A stretch of DNA of 64,000 nt from Chloroflexota bacterium (GTDB lineage Bacteria; Chloroflexota; Anaerolineae; Aggregatilineales; UBA2796). The DNA lies in assembly GCA_021325095.1 (NCBI GenBank), contig JAJPHV010000028.1:62001-126000 (forward strand), written 5' to 3'. The translations under genes and the position numbers were made by a program. Numbering within the stretch: the stretch's first letter is position 1; each line of letters starts with the position of its first letter. This document shows positions 48,699-53,709 of this stretch, one piece after another. The notes under the pieces were generated by a model. It was not told the DNA's origin and did no database searches. It worked only from the letters and a program-made list of their open reading frames with translations.

Positions 48699-49922
<1,224 letters not shown>

Positions 49923-49977
49923 CGTTGGAATTTCTGTTTTCGTCTACTCCGTCAAAAGGTATTGAGTACATGCAATC

Positions 49978-50919
49978 ATGATCGATTTATCCAGAGTACC
50001 AACAGATCCATACTACCAGACTGACAACGGAGCGGCCTACCTGGGGGACAGCCTGGAATTAATGCAGTATCTGCCTGATGAGAGTGTAGACCTGATTTTG
50101 ACATCGCCTCCGTTTGCACTTACACGTAGAAAGGAATATGGGAACAAGAGTGCAGACGAGTACGTTGAGTGGTTCCTGCATTTTGCTCATCAGTTCAAGC
50201 GGATAATGAGAGAAAACGCCTCGCTGGTCATTGATCTGGGAGGAGCGTACCTTCCGGGTTATCCGGTGAGGGCGATCTATCAGTTTGAGTTGTTAGTTAG
50301 GTTATGCAAAGAGTTGGGATTTTTCCTGGCACAAGAGTTTTATCACTACAACCCCTCCAAGCTGCCGACCCCAGCTGAGTGGGTCACAGTGCGACGTATC
50401 CGCGTCAAAGATGCGGTCAATGTCGTCTGGTGGTTATCGTTGACTGAATACCCTAAAGCCAATAACCGCAGTGTTCTCAAACCTTATAGTGAAAGTATGA
50501 AGTACCTGCTGGAAAATGGTTATAAACCTAAAATGCGTCCAAGCGGGCATGACATATCCGACAAATTCCAGAAGGATAATAGCGGCGCTATTCCGTCTAA
50601 CCTGCTAGAACTCGCTAATACAGAATCGAACAGTGCATATTTGAGACGCTGCAAACAAGCCGGGATCAAGCCTCACCCCGCCCGCTTTCCTCTTGACTTT
50701 GCCAGATTTTTCGTCGATTTCTTGACTGAAAAAGGCGATCTGGTTCTAGACCCCTTCGCTGGCTCAAACACTACTGGTCACTGTGCCGAGATTTCTGGCC
50801 GGAAATGGCTCGCATTTGAGATCAATGAAAGCTACTTGCAGGGCAGTCTTTACCGCTTCCAGGAAGTGAACGACCTTTTCCCGCTGAGGAGCAAGAATGC
50901 CTCCACACCACAAATATGA
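49978..50919 (+). CDS. Type II DNA methyltransferase, beta class (N4-cytosine type likely)
   Basis: A 313-residue methyltransferase with TSPPF (42-46) before DPFAGSNTT (258-266), that is, the catalytic motif IV preceding the SAM-binding motif I, as in class beta. TSPPF is typical of N4-cytosine methylases such as PvuII-type enzymes; the target site cannot be read. It protects host DNA from the endonuclease encoded next. The sequence is visibly AT-richer than both neighbours. The ribosome site is weak. Its 3' end overlaps the endonuclease start by 23 bases. Confidence 0.9.
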   Translation: MIDLSRVPTDPYYQTDNGAAYLGDSLELMQYLPDESVDLILTSPPFALTRRKEYGNKSADEYVEWFLHFAHQFKRIMRENASLVIDLGGAYLPGYPVRAIYQFELLVRLCKELGFFLAQEFYHYNPSKLPTPAEWVTVRRIRVKDAVNVVWWLSLTEYPKANNRSVLKPYSESMKYLLENGYKPKMRPSGHDISDKFQKDNSGAIPSNLLELANTESNSAYLRRCKQAGIKPHPARFPLDFARFFVDFLTEKGDLVLDPFAGSNTTGHCAEISGRKWLAFEINESYLQGSLYRFQEVNDLFPLRSKNASTPQI

Positions 50920-51895
50920 TTTGCTCGAAGCTATCGTCACGTCGATTAACGATGCTGGCTGGAACATACTGTATCTAGCCAGTATTGATGAGCACCCCTT
51001 TAGATTACAGATATACCGGGAGAATGAGAGCTTTACAGTACGTATCTACATTTGGCACATAACTCACGGAGGCGGCACGGCACGACCTAAAAATGAGTAC
51101 AGGATTCAAATTACGGGCACAGACCATTTCCAGCAAGTACCCGGTGAAAAGACGTTGATACTGGGTTGGTGGGAAGAGGGAGACGTATTCGCCGGTTGGG
51201 ACGTTCGTAAACATGGTGGCGCTCTCGGACAATCGCCTTCCTTGCAGATAAGAAAGGATTGTTTACAACGGGCTGCTGAAAATGTGTTTTCGCCTTGCGA
51301 CAAAGGGAATCAAGAAATTGCAATAGCGTTTCGCCCAGACTTCCTTGTTGAATATGTGCGTAATCTTGAACATCTGCACGATTTTGGACGATCACAGGAA
51401 GACTTGGCAGCGCTGGACGCTGTAGCGCAGCACCCAGAGATTAATGTCGAGGACATTCAGATTGCCGATAATGCACGGAAAATTACGATTATTTCCGTCA
51501 GCAAGAAATTGAGGGACGTGAAATTCCGCAACCGGGTCTTGGCTGCCTATGATTACCACTGTGCCATGTGCGGTTTGCAATTGAAACTGGTGGATGCCGC
51601 GCACATTATTCCAGTCAACCATGAAAAGAGCACAGACGAAACCCGAAACGGATTGGCTTTGTGTGTGCTGCACCATCGCGCTTACGATCAAGCGCTCTTG
51701 ACAGTTTGGGACGATTATTCGATTCGCGTCAATGACGCTCAGGTCGACCAATTGCGGCGTATAAGACGTGCGGGAGGTGTAGATACCTTTCTCAGCAATC
51801 TAGGTTCTGTCATCCGAACTCCTGTAGTGATCAATGATCGTCCGCATGTGGAATATATCAGAATTGCCAATTACATACGCAACTGGAAAACCTGA
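50897..51895 (+). CDS. HNH-type restriction endonuclease
   Basis: A 332-residue protein. The first about 200 residues are probably the recognition part and match nothing I can name with confidence; they contain GWWEEGDVFAGWD. Residues 220-264 form an HNH nuclease motif (CAMCG..., AAHIIPVNH, CVLHHRAYD), with a zinc-type Cys pair at 222/225. It would cut unmodified DNA and pair with the methylase upstream (23-base overlap, GAGGAG site). Also AT-rich. The pair looks like one acquired type II R-M cassette. Confidence 0.85.
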   Translation: MPPHHKYDLLEAIVTSINDAGWNILYLASIDEHPFRLQIYRENESFTVRIYIWHITHGGGTARPKNEYRIQITGTDHFQQVPGEKTLILGWWEEGDVFAGWDVRKHGGALGQSPSLQIRKDCLQRAAENVFSPCDKGNQEIAIAFRPDFLVEYVRNLEHLHDFGRSQEDLAALDAVAQHPEINVEDIQIADNARKITIISVSKKLRDVKFRNRVLAAYDYHCAMCGLQLKLVDAAHIIPVNHEKSTDETRNGLALCVLHHRAYDQALLTVWDDYSIRVNDAQVDQLRRIRRAGGVDTFLSNLGSVIRTPVVINDRPHVEYIRIANYIRNWKT

Positions 51896-51937
51896 GCCAC
51901 TGATTTAGACTCCTCAAAACATTGGGAGGGTAAAACT

Positions 51938-52732
51938 TTGCACGTCGTAGTCGTAACCCGCAGCACGCCGGACACGGCGGCCAAAGTCGAGGTGAACGCC
52001 GCTGGCGCAGTCACCTGGGGCGACGCCCAACTCGTCATCAATCCCTGGGACGAGTACACGGTGACGGAAGCCGTGATCCTCAAGGAAGCGCACAAGGTCA
52101 AGACGACGGTACTGGCCGTCGGGCCGGAGCAGCACAACGATTCACTCAAGCAGGGGCTGGCAATCGGCATTGACGAGGCCGCCCGCATCTGGGATGACGC
52201 GATGGAGGGCCAGGACAGCCTGGGCTATGCCAGCGCGGTGGCCGCCGCCATCAAGAAACTGGGGGATGTCGATCTGGTCATGTTTGGCAAGGAACTGGTG
52301 GACGTGGGCAGCGATGCGCACATTTACCAGGTCGGGCGCAAGTTGGGCTGGCCCGTGCTCGGCTCCGTCTCGAAGATTCAGGCCATCGACTTCAACGCCA
52401 AAACCCTCAAGGTGGAGCGTATGATCGAGGAGGGCAAGCAGATCGTTTCCAGCAAGCTGCCCGCCGTGATCAGCGTGCTCAAGGACATCAACGAGCCGCG
52501 CTACCCATCGTTCATGGGCATCCGCAAGGCGTCAAAGGCGCAGATTCCGGTGTGGGGCAGTGCCGATCTGGGATTGGGCGACGCGGCCTCCGGCGGCGCG
52601 GCGCACGTCCGCACCATTGCCTACAGCAACCTGCCCGTGCGCCAGGGCACTGTCGAGATCATTGAGGGCGCTACCGAGCAGGAAAAGGCCGAGAAACTGG
52701 TGGCGAAGCTGCTGGAGGAAAAGGTCATATGA
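51938..52732 (+). CDS. etfB: Electron transfer flavoprotein, beta subunit
   Basis: A 264-residue ETF beta subunit (AMP-binding; start MHVVVVTRSTPDTAAKV, DEYTVTEAVILKE, GKELVDVGSDAH). It forms the ETF dimer with the alpha subunit, taking electrons from acyl-CoA dehydrogenases. The TTG start has a GGGAGGG site. The stop overlaps the alpha start (ATGA). Its partner dehydrogenase lies upstream of the R-M insertion. Confidence 0.93.
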   Translation: MHVVVVTRSTPDTAAKVEVNAAGAVTWGDAQLVINPWDEYTVTEAVILKEAHKVKTTVLAVGPEQHNDSLKQGLAIGIDEAARIWDDAMEGQDSLGYASAVAAAIKKLGDVDLVMFGKELVDVGSDAHIYQVGRKLGWPVLGSVSKIQAIDFNAKTLKVERMIEEGKQIVSSKLPAVISVLKDINEPRYPSFMGIRKASKAQIPVWGSADLGLGDAASGGAAHVRTIAYSNLPVRQGTVEIIEGATEQEKAEKLVAKLLEEKVI

Positions 52733-53709
52733 GCGGCGTATTCGTCTGGGTAGACCAGTTTCACGGGAAAGCACTTCCTGTTTCGTGGGAAGCATTGGGC
52801 GTCGGGCGTAAGATCGCCGATACGCGGGGTGTGCCGCTGACGGCAGTGGTCTTCGGCCAGGACATTGACAGGCCGGTGCAGCAGGCATTTCATTACGGCG
52901 CGGACAAAGTGCTCAAATGCGATGATGCAACACTGGCCGAGTTCCGGCTGGAACCTTACGTCGCGTTGCTGGTGAAGGTCGTCAGGGACAATGGGGCGCA
53001 GATTGTGCTCGGCGGTGCTTCAACGCGCGGGCGCGAACTGCTGGCCGCCGCTGCCGCCGATCTCGACGCCGGGCTGCTGGCGGATGTGACCGAACTCGGT
53101 CTTGAAGGCGATTGCCTGAAGGCGACTCGCCCGGTTTATGCGGGCAAGGTGTTGAGCACGGCGACGGCCAGCGGCGCTGTCCAGTTCGCCACGCTGCGCA
53201 GCCGCGCCTTCCCCGCTCCGACGCCTGATACGAGCAGGAGCGGCGAGGTCGTCAGCGTTGCGCCCGTCCTGAGCGAAGACCAGATCACGACCAAAGTCGA
53301 AGGCTTCGAGGAAACCAGAGGCAGTGTCAACCTGGCCGACGCCCGGATTATCGTGTCCGGTGGGCGCGGTGTGGGCGGGCCGGAAGGCTTTGCCCCGGTG
53401 CGCGAACTGGCGGAGGTGCTGGGCGGAGCCGTCGGCGCCAGCCGCGCCACCGTCGATGCAGGCTGGATACCCTATGCGCACCAGGTGGGACAGACGGGCA
53501 AGACCGTCAGCCCCGACCTGTACATTGCGGTGGGTATCTCCGGCGCTATTCAGCATCAGGCCGGGATGCGCACGTCGAAGGTGATCGTCGCCATCAACAA
53601 AGACCCCGACGCGCCAATCTTCAAGCTGGCTCGCTACGGGATCGTGGGCGATCTGTTCAAGGTGCTGCCCGCGCTGACCCAGGCCTTCAAGGCTAAGTTG
53701 GGCAAGTAA
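52729..53709 (+). CDS. etfA: Electron transfer flavoprotein, alpha subunit
   Basis: A 326-residue ETF alpha subunit with the FAD-binding C-terminal domain: GGRGVGGPEGF, then SRATVDAGW, VGQTGKTVSPDLYIAVGISGAIQHQ and INKDPDAPIF. Coupled translation with etfB. It delivers electrons to ETF-quinone oxidoreductase, which is not in the window. Confidence 0.95.
   Translation: MSGVFVWVDQFHGKALPVSWEALGVGRKIADTRGVPLTAVVFGQDIDRPVQQAFHYGADKVLKCDDATLAEFRLEPYVALLVKVVRDNGAQIVLGGASTRGRELLAAAAADLDAGLLADVTELGLEGDCLKATRPVYAGKVLSTATASGAVQFATLRSRAFPAPTPDTSRSGEVVSVAPVLSEDQITTKVEGFEETRGSVNLADARIIVSGGRGVGGPEGFAPVRELAEVLGGAVGASRATVDAGWIPYAHQVGQTGKTVSPDLYIAVGISGAIQHQAGMRTSKVIVAINKDPDAPIFKLARYGIVGDLFKVLPALTQAFKAKLGK

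Follow-up and report, generated by a model that had tools for sequence, protein, structure and literature searches.

How did a DNA methyltransferase gene and a nuclease gene come to lie between acd, which encodes an acyl-CoA dehydrogenase, and etfBA in a 64-kb stretch of DNA (the window)? The original prediction was that a Type II restriction-modification (R-M) cassette had recently been inserted in an ETF operon. Insertion of such a cassette is supported by empty junctions in relatives, the foreign composition of the pair, its sporadic spread, the conserved pairing of its genes and homology of the etfB leader. The explanation that we favour, with a probability of about 0.87, is that the pair constitutes a compact, horizontally acquired Type II R-M unit inserted between acd and etfBA, and that it probably acts on CAGCTG. 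This reading is drawn from sequence comparison.

All features of the locus are on the + strand. The left flank is the native acd gene (48699..49922; Pfam Acyl-CoA_dh), whose orthologues in relatives are 74-88% identical. After a junction of 55 bases (49923..49977) comes the methyltransferase gene (49978..50919), followed by the endonuclease gene (50897..51895). Both ORFs are intact, encoding proteins of 313 aa and 332 aa, respectively, on the same strand. The right flank comprises the etfB leader with its ribosome-binding site (51896..51937) and the native etfB and etfA genes (51938..53709; Pfam ETF and ETF_alpha), etfB being 56-76% identical in relatives. As had been claimed, a methylase and an HNH endonuclease gene overlapping by 23 bases separate acd from etfB, and on this the ORFs and Pfam agree; by ORF coordinates, the overlap is exactly 23 bases (50897..50919). 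A Shine-Dalgarno-like GAGGAG (50886..50891, from reading of the sequence) lies inside the methyltransferase gene, 5 bases upstream of the nuclease ATG, and a similar site precedes the nuclease start in two homologous loci (L045 and L190). Between acd and etfB there are only these two genes, and no control (C) protein or third gene was found there. The predicted lack of an integrase also holds, in that the flanking ORFs read (46.0-56.6 kb) include no evident integrase or transposase. A scan of 48.4-54.0 kb for promoters and terminators gave no sites above shuffled expectation, with which one transcript running through acd, the pair and etfBA is consistent.

The first gene encodes a beta-class N4-cytosine DNA methyltransferase of the M.PvuII type. 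The protein matches M.PvuII (PDB 1boo) with E=1e-110 over residues 10-298, the Pfam family N6_N4_Mtase (PF01555) at 2e-34, and the PADLOC Type II methyltransferase model MTase_II PDLC03323 at 4.6e-127. It is 54.5% identical to the enzyme of the Proteus plasmid pPvu1, including the stretch RPSGHDIS...HPARFP. The catalytic motifs TSPPF and DPFAGSNTTG are intact and are invariant in nine homologues. Because of the homology to M.PvuII, the target is probably CAGCTG. The sole copy of this site in the window lies inside the methyltransferase gene itself (50372..50377). About nine more places in the host genome (G000) weakly match the methyltransferase (contigs C128, C114, C106, C17, C117, C51, C14, C127 and C13), and the host therefore probably encodes several more methyltransferases of this class.

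The second gene encodes a protein with an MTaX1 domain (residues 47-154, 51035..51358; Pfam, 3.6e-31) and an HNH_2 domain (residues 222-270, 51560..51706; Pfam, 2e-11), in which the CxxC, H, N and HH residues are intact. It also matches the PADLOC model for an HNH Type II restriction enzyme (4.8e-13), and its homologues that adjoin homologous methyltransferases are 53-67% identical. The locus thus has a methyltransferase with intact motifs, a separate, adjacent and conserved nuclease gene, and no ATP motor or specificity-subunit domain in either product, which is the make-up of a Type II system; with MTaX1 and HNH domains beside a methyltransferase, it also has that of an R-M system with an MTaX1-HNH nuclease. 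A search of PDB sequences with the nuclease gave no match to PvuII and a weak one to TagI. The structure model of the nuclease has a pLDDT of 70.5, the HNH part being poorly modelled, and in a fold search with this model no solved structure resembled the whole protein. The best hits were SPARDA nuclease chains (E of about 3e-3, query TM-score below 0.3), and the model was set aside for its quality. A phage origin was also considered and set aside, the three phage records found having partial HNH matches only.

Could the nuclease instead be a modification-dependent, Type IV-like HNH enzyme, linked by chance to a housekeeping or solitary methyltransferase? We consider this improbable, although it is the alternative that survives best. 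The C-terminal half of the nuclease does resemble phosphorothioate-dependent enzymes of the ScoMcrA type (NF045808) and, weakly, TagI. MTaX1 has been proposed, as a suggestion rather than a result, to discriminate modified DNA (PMC10853773), and in Nostocales close homologues of the methyltransferase occur without the nuclease. However, the NF045808 score is 70.5 bits, far under the cut-off of 180, and the match is confined to residues 198-321, the HNH half, for which reasons assignment to the ScoMcrA type was rejected. Moreover, an M.PvuII-like methyltransferase adjoins nearly every full-length close homologue of the nuclease that was read, many of the gene pairs overlapping, and an enzyme that cut the mark of its own partner would be lethal.

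The acd-etfBA junction was compared in relatives from the family and order of the window's host, all outside its genus. In 17 of the 29 relatives of the order whose etfB locus was read, acd is directly upstream of etfB. These 17 junctions, which come from several families, all lack the pair, and about 36-331 bases of bare spacer separate acd from etfB. Within the host's own family, acd adjoins etfB in one genome only (G006). In four others (G001, G002, G004 and G010), an 85-88% identical acd is on another contig or far from etfBA, and in a fifth (G005) a 74% identical acd homologue is likewise apart. The statement that acd and etfB are normally adjacent therefore applies to much of the order but not to the family, where the genes are mostly unlinked.

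The junctions also help to place the edges of the insert. The 42 bases from the nuclease stop to etfB can be aligned with the leader of etfB in three relatives (L015, L016 and L017; the score is reached by 0-3 of 500 shuffles), and in L015 and L016 the alignment begins at the base after the stop codon. The leaders of other relatives align less well. Since homology to the native leader resumes directly 3' of the nuclease gene, the right edge of the insert, judged from these alignments, is most likely the nuclease stop. The 55 bases on the left have no detectable homology to the acd-etfB spacers of relatives, nor any other convincing match in them. No direct target duplication was found, the longest word common to both flanks being 6 bases, and no convincing inverted ends or terminal repeats were seen at the junctions. 

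If the pair had belonged to an ancestral acd-etfBA locus and had been lost elsewhere, relatives with the same gene order and matching composition might be expected; such relatives were looked for and none was found. The frequent separation of acd from etfBA in the family implies that the locus has been rearranged there, which speaks for this reading of an old gene order. Against it, however, stand the bare junctions of the 17 relatives, the unbroken leader homology up to the nuclease stop and the foreign composition of the pair, and we regard it as very unlikely.

Insertion of a unit from elsewhere is in keeping with that composition, which had been predicted to differ from both sides. The GC content is 0.482 for the methyltransferase gene and 0.477 for the nuclease gene, whereas 211 ORFs taken from 402 kb of the host genome have 0.612 +/- 0.034 (in percent, 48% for the pair and 61% for host genes); both genes fall about four standard deviations below the host mean. 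In codon adaptation, the two genes are in the lowest 2.4% and 0.5% of host ORFs, respectively, and acd and etfB lie at the opposite extreme. The insertion had also been called recent, which is not established: low GC was rejected as proof of recency, because the methylase gene of the unit is AT-rich in other GC-rich hosts as well (GC of 0.43 in a host of 0.55 in L044, 0.48 in 0.62 in L059, and 0.56 in 0.67 in L045); in these three and in L131, the pair is AT-rich relative to its host. Composition thus shows foreign origin without dating the event, and low GC may belong to the unit permanently instead of marking a young insertion. That contaminant DNA was joined into the host contig is the least probable explanation, since, even in a draft assembly of 153 contigs with an estimated contamination of 6.4%, a chimera would have to arise from two separate misjoins, each falling precisely at a gene end, with host-like flanks and the etfB leader preserved.

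Homologues of the pair are scattered. They are found in Anaerolineae-class genomes (L131 and L190-L192, with more distant ones in L194-L197), in Chloroflexi MAGs (L044, L045), in cyanobacteria (L061, L066), in Ignavibacteriae, Cytophagales and Calditrichota MAGs (L083, L110 and L120, respectively), and on small plasmids of Thiothrix winogradskyi and Roseivivax marinus. The full nuclease is present in 9 of 298 genomes of the class and, besides the host, in one of 60 relatives (G048). The pairing of methyltransferase with MTaX1-HNH nuclease is nevertheless kept in at least a dozen loci from several phyla and the two small plasmids. The genes overlap by 17-44 bases in L044, L045, L059, L083, L110 and L136. 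Wherever neighbours were read, the neighbourhoods differ between loci; in L044, for example, the pair lies tightly between a gene of the histone-deacetylase family and a sensor kinase gene on the same strand. Sporadic spread together with conserved pairing is the pattern given by a horizontally moving R-M unit.

Some loci depart from the common form. In L059 (6890-7456), the nuclease homologue has lost about 142 residues in frame, and with them the HNH part, the methyltransferase being intact; this is decay towards a methyltransferase-only state. In the Calditrichota MAG (L120:2238-3190), an in-frame TGA interrupts the methyltransferase homologue, through either decay or sequencing error, and the adjoining nuclease gene is intact. 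On the Roseivivax plasmid (L135), an Mrr-type nuclease gene is beside the pair, and on a Hymenobacter plasmid (match H5) an MTaX1-like stretch occurs in a DUF262-domain protein. In many loci, mostly from Nostocales (in the range L046-L119), an M.PvuII-like methyltransferase lacks the HNH partner. A cynS (cyanase) gene and/or a GDSL/SGNH hydrolase gene is near the M.PvuII-like methyltransferase in 64 of 80 loci, which suggests that an orphan methyltransferase is vertically inherited.

How does the unit relate to known systems? The methyltransferase is homologous over its full length to that of the PvuII system of pPvu1, and the two probably share the target. The PvuII nuclease, however, is of the PD-(D/E)XK type, unlike the MTaX1 and HNH_2 protein of the window. 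The PvuII system also has a C control protein and a divergent methyltransferase gene, whereas here there is no C gene and the nuclease gene follows and overlaps the methyltransferase gene on the same strand. With a nuclease of another family and no C protein, the pair is not the PvuII system proper; one methyltransferase family is thus seen beside nucleases of unrelated folds. Between the pair and the R-M systems described with MTaX1 (PF20296; PMC10853773), which likewise have it beside a DNA methyltransferase and with an HNH C-terminus, no difference in kind was found. No biochemically tested member with this domain was found in the literature searched. The pair on Thiothrix winogradskyi pThCT3_1 has the same genes, order and domains, with an overlap of 20 bases; it differs in its setting, a plasmid of 15.9 kb on which it adjoins a toxin-antitoxin pair, and in sequence (about 67% and 43% protein identity).

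Complete R-M units inserted into operons on the same strand have been described for the PabI family (PMC4615327), whose enzymes and hosts differ from those of the window, and complete R-M systems are reported to travel in small elements and, often, autonomously (PMC4176335). The insertion was therefore read correctly, but as an event it is ordinary and leaves knowledge of R-M mobility unchanged. Its value is as a clean, comparatively documented entry of a bare R-M unit into a metabolic operon of an uncultured lineage, probably of Chloroflexota. The sequences might also be gathered into a wider picture, to which we give even odds: a putative CAGCTG restriction lineage that joins a PvuII-type methyltransferase to an MTaX1-HNH nuclease of unrelated fold, spreads in several phyla as two genes alone that insert flush in host operons, and shares descent with the solitary PvuII-type methyltransferase that many Nostocales keep at a conserved position.

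In the proposed mechanism, the methyltransferase would form N4-methylcytosine in CAGCTG, and the nuclease would cut CAGCTG when it is unmarked, with MTaX1 probably sensing or binding the site and HNH cutting. Since the nuclease start is inside the 3' end of the methyltransferase gene behind GAGGAG, we infer that the nuclease is translated after the methyltransferase; the methylase-first order and the gene overlap would favour protection before cutting. By way of caution, in PvuII itself a C-R overlap of roughly 20 bases was tested and showed no translational coupling (PMC2997769). As no recognisable signal sets transcription of the unit apart from that of the adjoining genes, acd, the pair and etfBA may share a transcript. 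Losing the unit may harm the host through post-segregational killing.

Avoidance of CAGCTG was considered as a trace of the unit's activity or target. In 402 kb of the host genome, CAGCTG occurs 21 times against 324 expected from an order-2 model, a depletion of about 16-fold, whereas CAGCGG is normal (345 observed, 311 expected). However, relatives that lack the pair are just as poor in CAGCTG: 4 observed against 92 expected in G005 and 5 against 87 in G001, in neither of which an M.PvuII-type homologue was found, and 3 against 75 in loci that belong to other families of the order. Depletion of the site therefore runs through the lineage; it was rejected as evidence of the unit's activity and does not confirm its target. 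The site is not likewise depleted in Nostocales loci (229 against 324), from genomes that have a PvuII-type methyltransferase with the nuclease not nearby. Sites were counted in the window plus L138-L157 for the host, L124 plus L158-L167 for G005, and L126 plus L168-L177 for G001.

Many other Type II sites, degenerate ones included, are almost absent from the host genome. Observed over order-2 expected counts are 9/486 for GRGCYC, 22/1252 for CGRYCG, 65/786 for CCRYGG, 59/389 for CYCGRG and 59/447 for RGATCY, and among non-degenerate sites 6/232 for CTGCAG, 1/200 for TCGCGA and 0/362 for CGATCG. Members of the family share many, not all, of these depletions. The near-absence of so many Type II recognition sites in the lineage may be a more useful lead than the insertion itself.
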